From: Natrinema soli
GTDB lineage: Archaea; Halobacteriota; Halobacteria; Halobacteriales; Natrialbaceae
DNA length: 15,459 nt
Direction of reading: 5' to 3'
Assembly: GCF_028618695.1 (NCBI RefSeq)
Contig: NZ_JAQIVI010000609.1
Location: 1-15,459, forward strand
Notes under the pieces: model-generated
Database searches by the model: none
The model's input: only the letters and a program-made list of their open reading frames with translations
Told to the model about the DNA's origin: nothing
Shown: piece after piece, positions 2,663 to 15,459 of the stretch
Numbering within the stretch: the first letter of the stretch is position 1
How the letters are laid out: every line of letters begins with the position of its first letter
Program-made: the position numbers and the translations under genes

Positions 2663-2785
2663 GTGAGCAAGAACACGACAACGAAGACAGCTTACTGTCC
2701 GAACTGTGGCACCGAACGAGAGGTACAGATCACCGTCCCCTGGCAAGACGATCTCTGTATCCAGTGCGGTGAGAACGTCGACTAG
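2663..2785 (+). CDS. 40-residue CPxCG zinc-finger micro-protein, GTG start
   Basis: A short frame from GTG 2663-2665 to TAG 2783-2785 encodes 40 residues starting MSKNTTTKTAYCPNCG and containing a second knuckle CIQCG near the end. Two Cys pairs about 20 residues apart make one treble-clef or ribbon-like zinc site. This is the pattern of haloarchaeal CPxCG micro-proteins. GGAGGGG (2651-2657) sits 5 nt before the GTG, a strong Shine-Dalgarno match, and no ATG in frame is available. An AT-rich stretch with TATATAT (about 2564-2572) lies about 90 bp upstream and could hold the promoter. Function is unknown. Intact spacing and the SD make this a believable gene despite its size. Confidence 0.68.
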   Translation: MSKNTTTKTAYCPNCGTEREVQITVPWQDDLCIQCGENVD

Positions 2786-3600
2786 CGTCGATTATACTCT
2801 GAACCGCACCACCCCGGTCTCCCGTACGATATCCTTGAGAAAGCCGGCCTCGCGGCACGGACAACAGTCGTCTCCGAACAGTCACTCGAGGCTATTCCTC
2901 TCTGAACTGCGAAGGCTGCTCGAAGAGAGAAGACCCACAGTTACTCCTGTTCGCTGGCTGCTGGCATCGTTTTTGATAGTCTCGTCACTAAGTGGGAGCG
3001 TCGCTCCCGCAAGGTCGTCGGCGCTGTGGTCCCAAGAACCCCCCATTCTCGGACGATCCGAGGCACTCTGCCTGCTCATGGAGTATTACTATCCATCAAC
3101 AATTGTTCATCGAGACTAGTCGGATGCACGCGGCTGCACCCCATGAGACTCTCGTCACGCCCGTGCTAAGAGATCCCTTAGCGGAGTCTCACCGACAACA
3201 GCCCATTCTCGGCAGAGTCGCCGTTCGGCGATATCCTTCGCATATCCAGTACGGATTATACCACGGTCACAATAGCTCTCCCATGCACGGTCATCGCCAC
3301 CTGTCTCCTTCTCGAACAGGTAATATTCCTTCCGAGCAATTCTCTTCCATCGGAAGCAACATAATTGTTTTTGGTGATGGTCTGGCGCCGGAAGTGGTAC
3401 AATCCACCCTCATGGTCTCAGAGAGGATGTTCGTTGGCGATCGGAGATGACCTCCTCGCTACGACGTGGATTACCCAGCGCACAGCGCTGAGCCACGTCG
3501 TTGACAATACCCACATCATACGAACCGCGTTAACGGCAGCCCTATTCGTCAGTGCTTCCCTGGGTAGCAGTGAAGATCTGTTCGCTCTCGGCATAGAAAC
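2786..3600. other. 815-bp stretch without a convincing gene
   Basis: No frame here shows a recognisable family or steady haloarchaeal codon use. A hairpin GGGAGC-GTC-GCTCCC occurs at 2994-3008, with the same GTC loop as two hairpins near 1.85 kb. One plus-strand frame (about 2788-2904) reads smoothly as PYDILEKAGLAARTTVV before a stop and might be a scrap of an old gene. I could not assign it. The right end serves as the TFB upstream region. Confidence 0.4.
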
Positions 3601-3601
3601 A

Positions 3602-3611
3602 AGGTCTTAAG
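3602..3611 (+). promoter_or_regulatory. Probable TATA element of the tfb gene
   Basis: GGTCTTAAGC, preceded by the A-rich GAAACAA (a plausible BRE), ends 25 bp before the TFB start codon. This is the spacing expected of an archaeal TATA box for a leaderless or very short-leader transcript. No strong Shine-Dalgarno sequence precedes the ATG, which agrees with leaderless translation. Confidence 0.45.
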
Positions 3612-3636
3612 CAACTCTATCCATGGATTACATATC

Positions 3637-4599
3637 ATGGAGCGCCCGACTCGCCAGCGTGAGCGTGACTCGAAGGCGGATCAACAAATCGAGGAGAGTA
3701 CCAGTGAACAAACCTGCGATGAATGCGGCTCGAACGCTCTCGTCACAAGCGAGGATCAGGGAGAGCTCGTCTGTGAGGACTGTGGCTTAATTATCGAAGC
3801 GACGAACATCGACCGGGGACCAGAATGGCGCGCGTTCGATCACTCCGAACGGAAGAGTAAATCCCGTGTCGGGGCACCCACCACGCAGACGATGCACGAC
3901 AAGGGGCTCACGACGCAGATTGACTGGAAAAACAAGGATGCCTACGGCCGCTCGCTGTCCTCGAAAAAGCGAAACCAGATGAACCGCCTCCGCAAGTGGC
4001 AAGAACGTATCCGAACGAAGGATGCCGGCGAGCGAAACCTCCAGTTCGCGCTCAGTGAGATCGATCGGATGGCCTCTGCGCTGGGCGTGCCGCGCTCGGT
4101 CCGCGAGGTCGCCAGCGTGATCTATCGGCGGGCATTGGACGAGGACCTCATCCGCGGGCGCTCGATCGAAGGCGTCTCGACGAGCTGTCTCTATGCGGCG
4201 TGCCGTCGAGAGGGGATCCCACGCAGCTTAGAGGAGATCGCCGACGTCTCACGGGTCGGACGGAAAGAAATCGGGCGCACGTATCGATATATCGCTCAAG
4301 AGCTGTCGCTTGCGATGGAACCGGTCGATCCAAAGGAGTACGTTCCACGGTTTTGTTCTGAACTCAACTCGAGCGAGGAGGTCCAGGCCAAAGCCAACGA
4401 GATCATCGATGTCACTGCAGAGCAGGGACTGCTGTCCGGGAAATCCCCAACAGGGTTTGCCGCCGCTGCAATCTATGCGGCCTCGCTCCTGTGTAACGAT
4501 AAGAGAACGCAAAAGGAAGTTGCAGCCGTCGCGCAAGTCACCGAAGTCACCATCCGGAACCGATATCAAGAACAGATCAAGGCGATGGGGCTCCACTAA
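3637..4599 (+). CDS. tfb: Transcription initiation factor B (TFB, TFIIB homologue)
   Basis: A 320-residue full-length TFB. The N-terminal zinc ribbon has C27-x2-C30 and C46-x2-C49. It is followed by the B-reader/linker segment [19 protein letters not shown] and a conserved stretch up to about residue 120. Two cyclin-like repeats follow, at about 125-210 (including [14 protein letters not shown] and [15 protein letters not shown]) and 220-315 (including [16 protein letters not shown] and the recognition helix [11 protein letters not shown]). TFB recruits RNA polymerase to the TBP-TATA complex and reads the BRE. Haloarchaea typically have several TFBs; one next to mobile elements and far from housekeeping genes suggests a niche-specific paralogue. 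It is monocistronic, with 187 bp to the IS-type element. Nothing essential is missing. Confidence 0.95.
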
Positions 4600-4754: not shown

Positions 4755-4786
4755 CTGCAGCTACCCCGTCACCAATAGAGATCGTT
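4755..4786. repeat. Diverged repeat copy B, left part, with target duplication
   Basis: Matches the left third of the repeat at 1391-1498 (CTGCAG, CCCCGTC, CCAATAGAGATCGTT) and stops exactly where the IS-type inverted repeat begins. The last 8 bases, AGATCGTT (4779-4786), recur immediately after the element at 6503-6510. The rest of copy B continues from 6511. Confidence 0.6.
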
Positions 4787-4806
4787 GGCCTTGTTGAAAC
4801 CCTCAG
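4787..4806 (+). repeat. Left terminal inverted repeat
   Basis: GGCCTTGTTGAAACCCTCAG, directly after the target duplication AGATCGTT. It pairs with 6483-6502 with three mismatches (positions 4, 5 and 14 from the tip). Confidence 0.7.
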
Positions 4807-4958
4807 TAGGTGATCGGTTTCGAGAGTTGAGCTGCATAGAGGGCGCATATCTCAAATCGGAACGATCACGAAGTACTCCGGCGGTATCAACCTGCGTGCG
4901 GGTCACCGTCGGGGAGGCTCGCATCGCCGACATCCGCGAGGGTAATGGGCCAGACCAG

Positions 4959-4989
4959 CATATTTACCAAAACTCAACCCGTATTGAGT
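4959..4989 (+). promoter_or_regulatory. TATA box and overlapping dyad upstream of the cargo operon
   Basis: CATATTTACC (4959-4968) is an archaeal TATA-like element about 25-30 bp before the ATG at 4993, suggesting a leaderless transcript. Between it and the start, ACTCAA (4972-4977) and TTGAGT (4984-4989) form a 6-bp inverted repeat around CCCGTA. An operator here would block polymerase at the transcription start. The positions are seen; regulation is inferred and no cognate repressor is encoded inside the element. Confidence 0.45.
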
Positions 4990-4992
4990 AAA

Positions 4993-5187
4993 ATGTCCAG
5001 ATTTCCGAGCGTCGGGACTATCGCCGTCGTTGGATCCGTACTGGTAGCGCTCCTCACCGTCCGACCGATACTAGCGACCGTTGGAGCGCACTTGATGATG
5101 GTGTGGCTCTTGGTCGAGGCCGTAAGGGCTCCCGGAACGGCGACGGAGTCGACGAGCACGTTGCCAGGAACGAGCGGCCAGCGATGA
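4993..5187 (+). CDS. Small membrane protein, coupled to the oxidoreductase
   Basis: A 64-residue protein starting MSRFPSVGTIAVVGSVLV. A hydrophobic stretch at about residues 8-27 and a second weaker one (HLMMVWLLVEAV, about 33-44) suggest one or two membrane helices. The tail (TATESTSTLPGTSGQR) is polar. The ATG at 4993 was chosen over the in-frame ATG at 4945 because a TATA element and dyad lie between them. Its stop overlaps the next gene's start as ATGA (5184-5187), so the two are translated from one message. No family was recognised. It might anchor or assist the oxidoreductase, but that is guesswork from the coupling. Confidence 0.55.
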   Translation: MSRFPSVGTIAVVGSVLVALLTVRPILATVGAHLMMVWLLVEAVRAPGTATESTSTLPGTSGQR

Positions 5188-6173
5188 TCGAAACCGGAGA
5201 GATGCCGGCCGTCGTAATGCGTGGCTTCGGCTCGCCCGATGTGCTCGAGCTCGCAATGGTCGAGAAGCCGACACCCGTGGACGACGAGGTGCTGATACGG
5301 ACCCGTGCGACGACCGTGACCGCAGGCGACTGTGAGTTCCGACGGCTCGACCTCCCGCTTTCCTTTCGGCTTCCAGTCTGGCTCTACGTGAAGCTCTGGA
5401 AGGGAAATCAGGTCGTCCCCGGGCAGGAGGTCGCCGGGGAGATCGAATCGGTCGGCGACGACGTGACGCGATTCGTGCCGGGCGACGAGGTGTTCGCCGC
5501 GACGTCGTTCCGGTTCGGCGGGGCTGCCGAGTACGTCTGTCTCTCCGAGTCGTATCCCATCGCGAGGATACCAGAACCCATGACCGTCGAGGAGGCCGCC
5601 ACGCTGCCGACGGGCGGACTGAACGCGATGCATTTCCTGCGGAGCGCAAACGTGGAGGACGGCGACGCGGTCCTGATCAACGGGGCCGGTGGCAGCATCG
5701 GCACGTACGCCGTCCAAATCGCTACGACCTGGGGAGCCGACGTGACGTGTGTCGATAGCGGAGAGAAACTGGACGTGCTGTGCTCGCTCGGGGCGAACTC
5801 CGTCGTCGATTACACGCGAGAAGAGTTCACCGACCGCGGCGAGCGCTACGACGTCGTCATCGACGTGGTGGGTACGAGTCCGTTTTCGCGCACATTGCGC
5901 TGTCTGTCGCCCGGTGGTCGCTACGTTCTGGGCAATCCAACGCTGCTCGGGCGAATCAGGGGCGGTTGGGCGAACTTGACCGGCGAGAGAACCGTCATCT
6001 CGTCCCTCGCCGGGTACGCGCCCGAGGACGTGGAAGCCCTCGTCGAACTCGTCGAAGCCGGCGAAGTGCGAGCGGTCGTCGACAGGCGATATCCGCTCGA
6101 CGAGATCGCCGACGCCCATCGATTCGTCGAGAGCGGACGGAAAACGGGTAACGTAGTCATCGACGTGGCGTGA
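5184..6173 (+). CDS. MDR-family NAD(P)-dependent oxidoreductase (quinone oxidoreductase-like)
   Basis: A 329-residue medium-chain dehydrogenase/reductase. The N-terminal GroES-like domain holds GQEVAGEIESVGDDV and PGDEVFA. The Rossmann domain has INGAGGSIGTYAVQIA, a nucleotide-binding AxxGxxG-like turn, then an acidic-strand region VTCVDSGEKLD. The C-terminus ends with the usual HRFVESGRKTGNVVIDV. The GHE motif of zinc alcohol dehydrogenases is GQE here and no structural-zinc Cys cluster is present, so it belongs with zinc-free quinone/enone reductases that move hydride from NAD(P)H. The substrate is unknown. I chose ATG 5184 because it overlaps the stop of the preceding gene; the frame is open to 5103 but that region codes for the small membrane protein. 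The gene lies entirely within the IS5-type element. Confidence 0.88.
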   Translation: MIETGEMPAVVMRGFGSPDVLELAMVEKPTPVDDEVLIRTRATTVTAGDCEFRRLDLPLSFRLPVWLYVKLWKGNQVVPGQEVAGEIESVGDDVTRFVPGDEVFAATSFRFGGAAEYVCLSESYPIARIPEPMTVEEAATLPTGGLNAMHFLRSANVEDGDAVLINGAGGSIGTYAVQIATTWGADVTCVDSGEKLDVLCSLGANSVVDYTREEFTDRGERYDVVIDVVGTSPFSRTLRCLSPGGRYVLGNPTLLGRIRGGWANLTGERTVISSLAGYAPEDVEALVELVEAGEVRAVVDRRYPLDEIADAHRFVESGRKTGNVVIDVA

Positions 6174-6219
6174 TACGATCCGATTGGACACCCGACTGGA
6201 AGTGTTGGTCGACCGACTC

Positions 6220-6450
6220 CTACTCCAGGGGATCGATGGCTCTCCGAATACGGGGCATCTCGATGAGTTCGTCAGGAAGTGTCCGATAGGTCGTGTTCTT
6301 CCGAACTTTGAGGCAGAGCAAGACAATGTGTTGATGGAGTGTGTATCGCTGTTTCGAGAACTTCGAAGAGTAGCGAGCGACAGCTCGTCGGGCCAAGTGA
6401 AATGCCTGTTCAACAAACTGGAGTAGCCGCGATTTTGGGAGGGCCTGCAT
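6220..6450 (-). pseudogene. IS5-family transposase, N-terminal fragment
   Basis: From ATG 6448-6450 the minus strand encodes MQALPKSRLLQFVEQAF, then ARRAVARYSSKFSKQRYTLH and VRKNTTYRTLPDELIEMPRI, ending RRAIDPLE-stop. This is the N-terminal domain of a common haloarchaeal IS5-family transposase, about a quarter of the usual 270 or so residues. Similarity is lost just before the stop, and the DDE catalytic core is absent. Only 52 bp separate the start from the element's right terminus, the normal arrangement. The fragment cannot catalyse transposition. The element would need a related transposase in trans. Confidence 0.82.
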
Positions 6451-6482
6451 CTGGTCAGACTAGCGGGCGAACCTGTAACTCT

Positions 6483-6502
6483 CTGAGGATTTCAACAGAG
6501 CC
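6483..6502 (-). repeat. Right terminal inverted repeat
   Basis: Reads inward on the minus strand as GGCTCTGTTGAAATCCTCAG and is followed outward by the target duplicate AGATCGTT at 6503-6510. Confidence 0.7.
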
Positions 6503-6600
6503 AGATCGTTTCATTGTCATCTCGTTCCGACAATCGATCTCTGCTTCACCCCCATCCAGTGATACATCACCGGTTGAGGAGGCCCGACGCCAGCCTCGAG
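6503..6600. repeat. Diverged repeat copy B, right part, with target duplication
   Basis: Begins with the duplicated AGATCGTT and continues with blocks matching copy A: GTTCCGA, CGATCTCT, CTTCACCCCC, CCCGACG and CAGCCTC. Relative to copy A it carries about 16 extra bases (TCATTGTCATCTCGTT), which look like a small local duplication. With 4755-4786 it reconstitutes the pre-insertion sequence, including both arms of the copy A palindrome (9 of 11 positions). The IS-type element therefore landed in the left arm and loop of that stem. Confidence 0.55.
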
Positions 6601-6696: not shown

Positions 6697-6740
6697 TCCA
6701 CGATTGCTACAACACCTGTAGCAACTATATCAATGAACTG

Positions 6741-6746
6741 TTATAT
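6741..6746 (+). promoter_or_regulatory. TATA box of the MFS transporter gene
   Basis: TTATAT ends 25 bp before the GTG codon at 6772, the spacing for a leaderless haloarchaeal transcript. It also argues against starts upstream of 6746. Confidence 0.5.
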
Positions 6747-6771
6747 GCGGGCAGATTGTTCCGTTCTTGAT

Positions 6772-7983
6772 GTGACCAACCAACCGTCGAATATCTCCCA
6801 ATCCTCTGACGGCATCCCCCGTAAAGTCCGGTCAGCACGCGTCGCGAACAGTATTGCGTTTGTCATCCTTGGTGCTATCTTCGCGACGTGGGCGGTCCGC
6901 ATCCCAGCCATCGAGTCACTCTTCCACCTCACTAAGACAGACATCAGTATCGCGCTCCTTGGACTCGCTGTTGGAAGCATCCTAGGCCTGATCGCCAGCG
7001 GTGCTCTCGTCGCCCGCTACAGTGCCAAGGCGGTTGTCCGCCTCGCGATCATCACCTACTGTCTTCTCCTCCCAGTCATCTCCTTCTCGGGCGGCCTGTA
7101 TACCCTCCTCATCATTCTGGTCGGATTCGGATTCGGAAAGGGTCTCCTCGACGTCGCCGCAAACACGCAAGCGCTTCACATCGAACAGGCCTATTCCCGA
7201 CAGATTATGGGTAGCTTCCATGCGCTCTACAGCGCCGGTGCGCTCCTCGGTTCGCTCATCGGTGCTCTCTTCACTAGCCTCGGACTATCAGCACAGAGTC
7301 ACTTTCTCATCCTCGCCGCTACGTTCCTCAGTATCGGTCTCACGGCAAGCGTATGGCTCCTCCCCTCGGAAGAAGATGAGAGCGAGGACACGAATTCCGA
7401 ACTCGCACTCCCTTCCAGAGAGATACTCGGGTTCTGCCTCATCGGGTTCTGCGCGCTGCTTATCGAAGGGATCGCAAACGACTGGAGTGCCGTCTTCTTG
7501 ACGGGGGCGGCTGGTGCACGTCCAGCGGTCGCCGCACTCGGATTCGCCGCGTTCGCGCTGGCGATGACGCTCGGTCGGTTTGCCGCCGACCGTGCCGTCG
7601 ATACGGTCGGTCCTCGCCGATTCATTCAGCTGACGGCAGCTATCGCCGCCCTTGGAGTCATCGTCACGCTCGTCCCGATCCCACCGGTCACGCTTTTCGG
7701 CTTCGGGATCCTCGGCTTCGGGATCGGTGGCGTTGCCCCAGTCAATGTCAGTCTCGTCGGCCAAGCCGACCTCAACCGGTCGGCGGAATCAGCCGTCGCT
7801 GCCGTCTCTACCTCGAGCTACGCTGGCTTCGCGGCCGGCCCAGTCGCAATCGGACTCCTAGCGGATGCCACCTCACTCCGGGTCGCCTTCCTCCCGGCAA
7901 TCGGCGTCGCCGCCGTCATCGCGACACTTACGTTCACACTCCCCACGAGCGGCAACACAGCCTCAGCAGTAGGCTCGGACTAA
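6772..7983 (+). CDS. MFS transporter (YbjJ-like), GTG start
   Basis: A 403-residue protein with about 12 predicted hydrophobic segments. The first is near residues 24-45 (ANSIAFVILGAIFATWAVRI). An acidic loop (SEEDESEDTNSE) separates the two six-helix halves. The second half opens with EGIANDWSAVFL, close to the EG-x2-DWS-x2-(Y/F)L pattern of YbjJ-type major facilitator proteins. Substrate and direction are unknown. The open frame extends to 6514 but that part is repeat and TnpB remnant. The GTG at 6772 was chosen for its distance from TTATAT; an ATG at 6733 lies upstream of that box and one at 6745 overlaps it. The 3' end overlaps the convergent TrmB gene by 4 bp. Confidence 0.85.
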   Translation: MTNQPSNISQSSDGIPRKVRSARVANSIAFVILGAIFATWAVRIPAIESLFHLTKTDISIALLGLAVGSILGLIASGALVARYSAKAVVRLAIITYCLLLPVISFSGGLYTLLIILVGFGFGKGLLDVAANTQALHIEQAYSRQIMGSFHALYSAGALLGSLIGALFTSLGLSAQSHFLILAATFLSIGLTASVWLLPSEEDESEDTNSELALPSREILGFCLIGFCALLIEGIANDWSAVFLTGAAGARPAVAALGFAAFALAMTLGRFAADRAVDTVGPRRFIQLTAAIAALGVIVTLVPIPPVTLFGFGILGFGIGGVAPVNVSLVGQADLNRSAESAVAAVSTSSYAGFAAGPVAIGLLADATSLRVAFLPAIGVAAVIATLTFTLPTSGNTASAVGSD

Positions 7984-9068
7984 GAGGGGCGGAGATCCAT
8001 CGGCTCGGAGAGCTCTTCGATGGTGAGGCGGTCGGCCGCGATATCCTCGATTGCCGCACCAGGCCCCCCGACGGTGTATTGGGTATCGTTGGCTTCGAAG
8101 ACGACGGTGGCCTTCGCTGCGAGTTCGAGCAGCGTCGCCGGTGTCTCGTCGCGGACACCCGTGTACTCGACGGCGTTGAACTCACCAGAAAGGGAGACCT
8201 GCCGTCCGTCCGCTCTCGACGTCCCGATTACGTGGCCCCGGATCGTCGCGTCGGCATCAAGCGCGGGTTCGATGCCACGTACGCAGTCGGTTATTTCGAC
8301 GAACGTGAACGGGGCATCAGAACTGCGAGCATCGTAGACAATGTCGTAGACCTCACGTAGCCGAGTGAGGAAGTACCAGTGGAAAACATAGGCTGTCGCG
8401 TAGTCGTCGACGAGGACACCGTATTCGTTCGTCTGACGGCCGCGAGTCGAGTAACACGCTTGCTGCCGGTCTGCCAATAAGAGAAATGGACCAGGGAGTG
8501 TCCGTCGTCGCACCTCGTGACAGAGCCCCTGAAGCTCCGCGGGAGCTGGCGGTGTCTCATCGGGCGGAACGAACAGGGACAGATGAATTCGGACGCCGCG
8601 CTCGTAGGCCGCTCGAAGCACGGAGCGGAGCCGCTCAACCTGTGTGTCCGTCGCAGCGAGCTGAAGGTGGTTCTCGGCATCCGAGATGACCGTTCGGGCG
8701 TGATCGAAGACGGTGCGAAATCGCCGAACGACACTTACCTCGCCCTCTATTTCGTCGGGGGCGTCATAGCGGTCCTCGATGGCGGTAATCGCGTTCTCGA
8801 ACCGACTGACAGTCGACCGAAGCGAGGCGAGCGCGTCGCTTGGGTTGACGGGATGAGCGGTGAGGGTCTCTTGATCGTAGAGCGTAACATAGCCCCCGTC
8901 TTCGAGGGATCGCAGAACGTCGTAGATACGCGCCCGTGGCACGGTGCTGGCCGTCGCGAGTTCGCTCGCCGCTGACGGCCCCATCTCCAATAGCATGACG
9001 TACGCGTCAGCCTCGTACGGCGAAAACTCAGCTTTTTCCAATATTCTGCAAAGCTCATCTGACTCCAT
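7980..9068 (-). CDS. TrmB-family transcriptional regulator
   Basis: A 362-residue protein with the three-part TrmB layout. The N-terminal winged helix (residues 1-75) contains FSPYEADAYVMLLEMGPSAA, ATASTVPRARIYDVL and the wing GGYVTLYDQ. A short coiled coil follows (SRFENAITAIEDRYD), then a phospholipase-D-like middle domain (ENHLQLAATDTQVERLRSVL, YERGVRIHLSLFV) and the C-terminal effector domain (RGHVIGTSRADGRQVSL). TrmB proteins sense sugars and switch transport or metabolic genes. The neighbour is a transporter but the genes converge, so control of it would have to act at the distant promoter near 6.74 kb. No operator pair was found to support this. The start is ATG 9066-9068. Confidence 0.9.
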   Translation of the reverse strand: MESDELCRILEKAEFSPYEADAYVMLLEMGPSAASELATASTVPRARIYDVLRSLEDGGYVTLYDQETLTAHPVNPSDALASLRSTVSRFENAITAIEDRYDAPDEIEGEVSVVRRFRTVFDHARTVISDAENHLQLAATDTQVERLRSVLRAAYERGVRIHLSLFVPPDETPPAPAELQGLCHEVRRRTLPGPFLLLADRQQACYSTRGRQTNEYGVLVDDYATAYVFHWYFLTRLREVYDIVYDARSSDAPFTFVEITDCVRGIEPALDADATIRGHVIGTSRADGRQVSLSGEFNAVEYTGVRDETPATLLELAAKATVVFEANDTQYTVGGPGAAIEDIAADRLTIEELSEPMDLRPS

Positions 9069-9110
9069 TCATGCTGCATTCCGTTGTCCAGTCGCCTAAC
9101 TCTTGGTGAC

Positions 9111-9141
9111 ATCCTCCCCGGCCTAAACGCCGGGGCTTCCC
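9111..9141 (-). mobile_element. Second TnpB-type terminal hairpin relic
   Basis: CCCCGGC (9116-9122), a 6-nt loop and GCCGGGG (9129-9135) lie in the context GTGACATCCTC...CTTCCCA. On the minus strand this is GGGAAGCCCCGGC...GCCGGGGAGGATGTCAC, essentially the standard end of haloarchaeal IS200/IS605 TnpB elements, closer to it than the 1555-1574 copy. No tnpB frame survives upstream (9142-9344 on the minus strand). It lies about 45 bp upstream of the trmB start, so it sits in that gene's promoter region. Confidence 0.5.
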
Positions 9142-9344
9142 ACGCCCACCAATGCGCGGATCGTTGAATCACTGCTGAAGAACCATCTCAGGTCACTAGT
9201 CGAGGAGAGGGTTCACTTCGGTAAACGCTCTCAAGGGTATCTATCGGTTCGTCCGCGCGCTACACGCCGGTTTTCGGTTGATACTCGGTGATAGGAAACA
9301 GCCCGCGAACCCCGGTCCACTTGAATCGGAGTTATGCGATCGTA

Positions 9345-11350: not shown

Positions 11351-11713
11351 CGGGCGATACGTTCATCGGTCACACGCGACTACCACAGCCACCCCCGATT
11401 CGTATGAGCAAGTACGACGATCTCTTCGCCGAGACCGCGCCTACCGATAGCGTCTTCGCCGACAAGGGCGCGCTCGATCCCCTCGCGGAGCCCGCGGAGA
11501 TCCACGCCCGCAACGCCCAGGAACGCGAGCTCGCCAGGATCCTCACCGGCGTCGATGACGGCTCCCACCCGCCGACGGTCTCGGTGGACGGCCCGCCCGG
11601 CACGGGCAAGACGCTCACGACGCGGCGGGAGTTCGCCGCCCGCCACGATGCCGTTATGGTGGAGTACGTGACTCTCACGGAGTGTCGCACGCTGTTCAGT
11701 GCGGCCAACGAGA
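11351..11713 (+). repeat. Direct repeat containing the orc1 5' region, copy 1
   Basis: Aligns with 14683-15054 over its whole length: 53 bp of upstream DNA ending CGATTCGT plus the first 310 bp of the orc1 frame. Identity is roughly 85% by eye and nearly complete over the first 80 coding bases. The 363/372-bp length difference is exactly the 9-bp in-frame deletion in this copy. Similarity ends inside the codon after AACGAG. Confidence 0.8.
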
Positions 11714-11721
11714 ATGTATAA
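11404..11721 (+). pseudogene. orc1: Orc1/Cdc6 replication initiator, truncated copy
   Basis: Encodes 105 residues from MSKYDDLFAETAPTDSVFAD through the Walker A motif GPPGTGKT and ends ECRTLFSAANENV-stop, where the longer copy continues ILVELTGEKK. The Walker B, sensor and winged-helix domains of a roughly 400-residue Orc1 are absent. Three residues (VCQ) after Walker A are deleted relative to the other copy, and GYLPP is GSHPP. It cannot act as an initiator. It could be expressed as a short peptide, but it more likely marks a recombination junction with the AT-richer amidase block that follows. Confidence 0.82.
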
Positions 11722-14682: not shown

Positions 14683-15054
14683 CGGGCGACACGTTCATTG
14701 GTGGCACGCCACTACCACTGGCAACCGCGATTCGTATGAGCAAGTACGACGACCTCTTCGCCGAGACCGCGCCTACCGATAGCGTCTTCGCCGACAAGGG
14801 GGCGCTGGATCCCCTCGCGGAGCCCGCCGAGGTCCATGCCCGCGACGCTCAGGAACGCGAGCTCGCGACGATTCTCACTGGCGTCGATGACGGCTATCTC
14901 CCGCCGACGGTGTCGGTGTACGGTCCGCCGGGGACCGGCAAGACGCTGACGACGCGGCGGGTCTGTCAGGAGTTCGCCGCCCGCCACGACGACGTCGCGG
15001 TGGAGTACGTCAACCTCAAGGAGTGTCGCACGCTCTTTAGCGCGGCCAACGAGA
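14683..15054 (+). repeat. Direct repeat containing the orc1 5' region, copy 2
   Basis: Counterpart of 11351-11713, including the upstream stretch CGGGCGACACGTTCATTGG and the first part of the orc1 frame. It brackets, with copy 1, a segment of just under 3 kb that carries the amidase and the decayed toxin-antitoxin pair. Confidence 0.8.
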
Positions 15055-15459
15055 TCCTCGTCGAACTCACTGGCGAAAAGAAGGGTGCCTACGAGGGGTT
15101 GGACGGCGTCTTCACCGGAATCTGGGCGGCGCTGGCTGACTACCCCGAGTGGACGGTGCTCATCCTCGACGAGATCGATCACGTCCAACACGACACGAAC
15201 TACGATCCCAGCGAGTTCTTCTACCGGCTGCTCCGCGGCGAGGGGAAGCTCTCGCGGGGGATCGACCTGTCGGTCTGGCTGGTGAGCAACGAACTGCTGG
15301 AGGTCGACCTGCGGCTCGATAGCCGCGTCGCAAGCGCGATGAGCGACGAAGCCGTCTTCTTCCCGCCGTACGGGGCCGCCGAGCTCGAGGCGCTGCTCGC
15401 CCCCCGGCTCGCACGCGCGTTTCACGGTGGAGCCGTGCCAGACGAGGTGTGCGCCCACG
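14736..15459 (+). CDS. orc1: Orc1/Cdc6-type replication initiator (partial, runs off the right edge)
   Basis: The frame is open from ATG 14736 to the window end (241 codons). It has the AAA+ ATPase core of archaeal Orc1/Cdc6: Walker A GPPGTGKT (63-70), Walker B VLILDEID (141-148), sensor-1 Asn185 in VWLVSNE and the conserved acidic-aromatic PSEFFYRLLRGE between them. A later segment has DSRVASAM. Orc1/Cdc6 binds origin-recognition boxes and loads MCM. Haloarchaeal plasmids and megaplasmids often carry their own copy beside their origin. The C-terminal winged helix is outside the window, so intactness downstream is unknown. The short N-terminus (MSKYDDLFAETAPTDSVFAD) is as in a plasmid-type subgroup. 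Confidence 0.92.
   Translation, partial: MSKYDDLFAETAPTDSVFADKGALDPLAEPAEVHARDAQERELATILTGVDDGYLPPTVSVYGPPGTGKTLTTRRVCQEFAARHDDVAVEYVNLKECRTLFSAANEILVELTGEKKGAYEGLDGVFTGIWAALADYPEWTVLILDEIDHVQHDTNYDPSEFFYRLLRGEGKLSRGIDLSVWLVSNELLEVDLRLDSRVASAMSDEAVFFPPYGAAELEALLAPRLARAFHGGAVPDEVCAH

Follow-up and report, generated by a model that had tools for sequence, protein, structure and literature searches.

A transposase-truncated, oxidoreductase-carrying element of Natrinema soli and its passenger-carrying haloarchaeal IS5 lineage

Main finding

The mobile element of Natrinema soli analysed here is very probably a non-autonomous, cargo-bearing derivative, of the mobile insertion cassette (MIC) type, of a widespread passenger-carrying IS5 lineage of haloarchaea. 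In this lineage, the space from a left end of about 60–70 bp to the 3' end of the transposase gene is occupied by passenger DNA. Within its lineage the element is nothing out of the ordinary; the interest lies with the lineage.

The element in the Natrinema soli window

The window is the whole 15,459-bp stretch of N. soli DNA that was analysed, and the features assigned to the element are listed in Table 1. When the end-and-duplication rule was applied to the window by script, exactly one pair was returned, which was the element at 4787–6502. The IS5-type element of the preliminary description, with its inverted ends and perfect duplication, was therefore recovered as the only such pair in the window. 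Terminal inverted repeats combined with an 8-bp target duplication, a feature of IS5 elements, were found both in the window element and in the lineage. An 8-bp target duplication is a feature of the ISH1 subgroup of the IS5 family.

Table 1. Positions of the element, its parts and its insertion site in the window
Feature	Position	Strand	Remarks
Mobile element	4787–6502		1,716 bp; bounded by ends and 8-bp target duplication
Target duplication, left copy	4779–4786		AGATCGTT; 8 bp, perfect
Target duplication, right copy	6503–6510		AGATCGTT; 8 bp, perfect
Left terminal inverted repeat	4787–4806	+	17/20 match to right repeat
Right terminal inverted repeat	6483–6502	-	17/20 match to left repeat
Left-end module (flavour B)	4787–4853	+	About 60–67 bp; also in solo ends and transposase-complete relatives
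Linker, left-end module to cargo	4854–4936		Source not matched
Cargo block	4937–6236	+	89–91% identical to three haloarchaeal loci without adjoining IS5 match
64-aa ORF	4993–5187	+	Upstream of the MDR start and overlapping it (ATGA)
MDR-superfamily oxidoreductase	5184–6173	+	329 aa; Pfam ADH_zinc_N_2 (96.8 bits) and ADH_N (44.7 bits)
Truncated IS5 transposase	6220–6450	-	First 76 of about 273 codons, cut at the cargo
Junction of cargo and transposase gene	6231–6236		6-bp microhomology GAYCGA

The transposase fragment, whose 76 codons span 6223–6450, was 89% identical to that of an intact relative (L021), and the earlier reading of a gene cut to about 76 codons was upheld. Its family was recognised through this relative. 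The model NF033579 (transpos_IS5_2, cut-off 140) gave 217 bits for L021 and 24.9 bits, below the cut-off, for the window fragment. With PF01609, L021 scored 53.1 bits; both matches mark its transposase as an IS5-type DDE enzyme.

At the other end of the element, 14 of 17 matches between the left-end module and the collected loci ended 60–67 bp from the tip, and three ended at 34–36. Beyond position 67 from the tip, the linker gave no match in the collected loci (E up to 1e-6). The left end proved unlike that of the first relatives, which raised the idea that the element combines two unrelated types; this was rejected since flavour-B left ends were present on transposase-complete elements, e.g. 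L104, L105, and L123.

The MDR oxidoreductase inside the element, as first described, was confirmed by its two Pfam domains. Its best NCBIfam match was the PIG3-type quinone oxidoreductase, with a score below the cut-off of that family. A small membrane protein gene had been described in front of it. The 64-aa ORF exists; the membrane-protein label is weak, as the ORF had no Pfam match (scan from 4945) and its relative in Natronosalvus (L017) was frameshifted.

Several other genes of the window were noted. A TFIIB-type transcription factor gene lies just left of the insertion (3637–4599), and its DNA was 88% identical to a copy on a Natrinema salinisoli plasmid. On the right, an MFS transporter and a convergent TrmB-type regulator (6718–9068) have the same order on a Natrinema zhouii plasmid, which was 94% identical to the window over 6697–9169. 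A VapB-like antitoxin and PIN-domain gene pair was recognised by Pfam at 274–925. Two similar N-terminal ATPase pieces, the first cut short, were found at about 11404–11721 and about 14740–15459. Similar Natrinema plasmid DNA was annotated as AAA family ATPase, and both pieces look Orc1/Cdc6-like.

Census of the lineage

The lineage was searched with the right end of the element (window 6231–6510) as query in 391 haloarchaeal genomes, with two candidates scored per genome. Of these, 231 gave a match to the right end at E up to 0.001. From the best 150 matches listed, 113 loci were examined (80 mostly top-ranked and 33 others). The census input was 120 loci, namely these 113, the window, L019, L025, L027, and L053, together with L172 and L178. 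The census elements came from 52 genomes and the window by hand count, in a sample that leans to close relatives of the window right end.

Among 121 distinct right ends, 58 were paired with a left tip showing an exact 8-bp duplication, seven had one mismatch in the duplication, and 56 had neither. When the duplications were permuted among the right ends as a control, 0.03 exact matches were obtained on average, compared to the 58 observed. For 23 of the 121 right ends, all among the 56, the search gave no left candidate at up to 2 mismatches.

The 58 elements with exact duplications were 1,195–6,117 bp long, and the transposase with both ends needs about 950 bp. For none of the 121 right ends was there a left end (at most 2 mismatches) closer than 1,195 bp. 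Thus, no passenger-free element was seen, because the shortest pair exceeds the length that is needed. There were 63 distinct configurations, two of which overlap at L178, where two inverted IS copies lie face to face and do not form a simple element. An intact transposase ORF was present in 45 of the 63, and the stretch to its left was never shorter than 321 bp. The expectation that intact relatives among haloarchaeal IS5 elements contain nothing but the transposase is contradicted by these 45 configurations and by the lack of any left end nearer than 1,195 bp. At two more distant IS5 copies, L035 and L056, no end pairs were detected.

Passenger genes and cargo turnover

A Pfam scan was performed on 40 ORFs from 34 elements (E of 1e-5 or better). 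Pfam families were matched by 30 ORFs and the other ten had none. One of the 30 matches (HD_4) was under the gathering score, and three were transposases of other kinds or TnpB proteins. Counted per element, 21 of the 34 carried one or more non-transposase families that reached the gathering score; for the remaining 13, what is shown is extra DNA. The passenger families included TehB-type and O-methyltransferases, acyl-CoA dehydrogenase, formate/nitrite transporter, RibD_C (twice), periplasmic binding protein, glutathione S-transferase, a hydrolase with HTH_10, PAS-histidine kinase, a PLP enzyme, GNAT, redoxin (twice), pilin, and BCCT transporter. An oxidoreductase operon as cargo had been thought unusual for this IS type; given that every bounded relative carries extra DNA and that 21 of the 34 scanned carry a recognisable non-transposase gene, this judgement was not supported.

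ORF length was also tried as evidence for passengers. It was rejected because the antisense ORF of 405 aa that the ORF chooser took in the window is spurious, and Pfam matches were used instead. A close analogue of the window element was found at L198, which has transposase homology of 81 aa, an exact duplication, and the BCCT transporter.

The cargo of closely related elements was compared among 61 elements, with L178 and identical copies left out. In 34 of 35 pairs whose right modules were at least 90% identical over at least 800 bp, no common cargo of 100 bp or more was detected at the DNA level (blastn). The exception was L201/L208, with redoxin. L104 and L105 were 99.8% identical over the right 939 bp and 100% identical over the left 60 bp. 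Their cargo was unrelated (766 vs 2,326 bp between the modules) and their duplications differed. The same pattern was observed for L116 and L134 (right 97.4%, left 98.5%).

Distal and solo left ends

Such cargo swapping might come from homologous recombination between element copies, through the left module of about 60 bp and the transposase module, without the use of distal ends. The retention of both end modules at 97–100% with different cargo in L104/L105 and L116/L134 agrees with recombination, as does the use of the nearest left candidate in 55 of the 58 exact pairs. However, L142, L172, L181, and ISHxa2 (L212) each skip an end for a distal one with an exact duplication. The skipped ends of L142, L172, and L181 (position 1309) have changes in the conserved tip, and ISHxa2 holds a changed end-like sequence inside its bounds. 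Furthermore, L172 and L104 have left ends with 99% identity over 69 bp, and their transposase regions have about 82%, so left ends and transposases travel apart and the ends are modular. Recombination as the source of cargo swapping is thus possible, and we lean somewhat against it.

That cargo is captured by a switch to a farther left end is suggested by three of the 58 exact pairs and by ISHxa2, which skip a nearer end copy. New cargo would enter the lineage when a right end is paired by its transposase with a compatible left end farther away. In ISEcp1-type capture, one end is likewise paired with a more distant end and neighbouring genes are taken along. The distal ends of ISEcp1-type capture are cryptic sites, whereas those of this lineage belong to a conserved left-end family.

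Two further arrangements of ends speak against a simple rule of end use. In the first 156 bp of L181, the left end is tandemly duplicated, with the copies 90 bp apart and identical at 66 of 66 bp, and the inner copy is passed over although undamaged. At L089, two end-like sequences are in opposite orientation.

In the Haladaptatus halobius genome, flavour-B left ends were present in at least 19 places (40 candidates scored). Among the 17 of these 19 regions that were examined, only that of L046 pairs with another end, with a duplication of 7/8 bases. The L046 unit (2725–3750) is 1,026 bp long and has end-like sequences on both sides with this 7/8 target duplication. No transposase was seen in the unit, and its 291-aa ORF had no Pfam match; a provisional label of 'ATP-grasp' for this cargo was dropped when Pfam found no family. 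At five other loci of this genome (L033, L037, L040, L042, and L043), the flavour-B ends were alike for about 220–450 bp outside the tip, which is the reverse of the expectation for an element end. Inside the tip, four of the five differ past the end module, and L037 and L040 match over 1.4 kb.

Origin of the oxidoreductase cargo

At E up to 1e-60, three of the 391 haloarchaeal genomes contained relatives of the MDR block, which lie on a Haladaptatus halobius plasmid, in Haloferax prahovense, and on a Natronosalvus halobius plasmid. In these three, the block is followed by an HTH-gene sequence common to them instead of IS5. This gene has an HTH_10 domain in L017 and is shortened in Haladaptatus. 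No IS5 match was detected around the three blocks within stretches of 9–13 kb. Outside haloarchaea, the closest proteins in a genome-contig scan were of Chloroflexi-type MAGs (54–56%).

Between the window protein and its three relatives, 19, 19, and 30 of the 329 residues differed. The dN/dS values of 0.22–0.27 indicate that the MDR gene is under purifying selection, and the enzyme may still be functional.

In H. halobius, a flavour-B left end with an intact tip lies 87 bp before the MDR block. Neither a right end nor a duplication was found there, and the locus was rejected as a complete cassette. Neither in the 391 haloarchaeal genomes nor in the plasmid collection was the MDR element found again between the same ends.

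On the right side of the cargo, the match to the cargo loci ends at 6236 and the IS5 match starts at about 6231. The junction reads GGGGACCGAACTCG in the cargo loci, AGACCGATGGC in an IS relative, and GGGGATCGATGGC in the window. By this alignment, the right junction is a microhomology join of 6 bp inside the transposase gene.

We propose that the MDR locus would have lain beside a flavour-B left end, as it does in H. halobius today. A deletion at the microhomology would have joined it to the 5' part and the right end of a nearby IS5. The transposase of a full-length relative, acting in trans on this right end and the flavour-B left end, would then have moved the 1,716-bp unit into AGATCGTT.

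The insertion site and movement as a unit

When the flanks of the element were joined by script, 134 bp across the junction aligned to an uninterrupted target on the N. zhouii plasmid, with 111 of 134 positions identical. This empty target holds one copy of the duplicated sequence, reading GGGTCGTT. Since the target belongs to a repeated sequence and about 2.9 kb separates it in N. zhouii from the DNA matching the MFS flank of the window, it is homologous and not proven orthologous. The repeated sequence is seen in the window itself, where 1237–1498 is a partial copy of the target. One N. zhouii plasmid locus matches both this copy (79%) and the element flanks (82–88%).

The target duplication and the single copy in the empty target make it most likely that the window element moved as one unit. 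Within the lineage, an identical 1,304-bp element occurred at three sites (L021, L107, and L109) with the duplications ACCACGTC, ACTCAGAA, and GTCATTCT. Two sites of a single genome (L165 and L193) likewise hold one and the same 1,412-bp element, with the duplications GGTTCTCA and GAGAGATT. Copies with the same cargo between the same ends and different duplications had been proposed as proof of movement as a unit; they were found for these other cargos of the lineage and not for the MDR cargo.

Another history would be that a passenger-free IS5 was inserted at AGATCGTT first, and that the MDR block later replaced most of its transposase gene in place, so that the duplication would date from the older insertion and the composite never moved. 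In favour of this, the right junction is an illegitimate join within the transposase gene and could have arisen in situ. However, the left end is of flavour B and lies near the cargo as in Haladaptatus, and replacement in place needs a double joining with both ends retained. A passenger-free ancestor was moreover not observed (0/121), because no left end was near enough at any of the right ends. We therefore regard replacement in place as unlikely. A composite transposon, to which an operon between two IS-type ends might point, is highly improbable, as two IS copies flanking the cargo were not found: transposase sequence is on the right side only, the left side matches known elements over about 67 bp only, and the duplication is at the outer ends of one unit.

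Comparison with known systems

Among the described elements compared was ISHxa2 (IS5 family) of Halopiger xanaduensis pHALXA01. It belongs to the same transposase lineage, and the window right end was 79% identical to it. We located ISHxa2 as a 2,490-bp unit that is flanked by an exact duplication, AGACGGTG, and holds two passenger genes, one annotated as RDD family and the other as hypothetical. Unlike the window element, its transposase gene is annotated as full length, and it carries other cargo.

MICs consist of a gene between IS-type ends without a functional transposase. The window element, with coding cargo between IS-type ends and a transposase of 76 codons, has this structure, and the likeness to transposase-less mobile insertion cassettes pointed out in the preliminary description is borne out. 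Examples are MIC231 of Bacillus cereus (cited in PMC6542083) and the qnrS2 MIC (PMC5444012). The window element is unlike these two in its IS5-type ends, its archaeal host, its metabolic oxidoreductase, and the 76 transposase codons that it kept.

Transporter IS (tIS) are defined, in the accessible portions of three papers, as IS with passenger genes unrelated to transposition (PMC3129680, PMC7986276, and PMC9330008). The lineage of the window element has the features of tIS. Movement as a unit with the passenger is indicated in the window by the duplication and the empty target, and in the lineage by identical units with different duplications. A transposase of functional length beside the passengers is lacking in the window element (76 codons). 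A single tIS member of the IS6 family is named in the part of an IS6 review available to us. Unlike the IS6 case, extra DNA was present in 58 of 58 bounded copies of this lineage, and near-identical backbones carry different cargo.

For Halorubrum lacusprofundi, a transposon with the passenger gene Hlac_3088 is described in the accessible part of the report (PMC10544981). It is likewise haloarchaeal with a passenger gene, and it is set beside the window element by this description only; its family is not named there, and the main text does not use the term IS5. The Haloquadratum genome paper, in its available portion, describes transposons, MITEs, and other repeats, and not passenger genes (PMC3119063). 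Among the titles and abstract openings listed in searches of the open literature, no report of passengers as the rule in haloarchaeal IS5 was seen.

Significance

An insertion sequence is commonly taken to hold a transposase gene alone, with passenger genes as exceptions. The lineage offers a testable model for cargo capture by end switching. Whether it acts as an obligate gene shuttle, with a modular left end of about 65 bp, a cargo slot, turnover driven by distal ends, and crippled cassettes, appears to us evenly balanced. If it does, cargo would turn over faster than the transposase through any compatible distal left end, and many such compatible ends would be the solo ends in haloarchaeal genomes. 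Transposase-crippled versions like the window element would then spread single operons as gene cassettes. Since every bounded copy contains DNA besides the transposase, in many cases with a recognisable gene, and since the cargo of near-identical backbones is unrelated, a common IS is a plausible route of gene exchange among haloarchaea.
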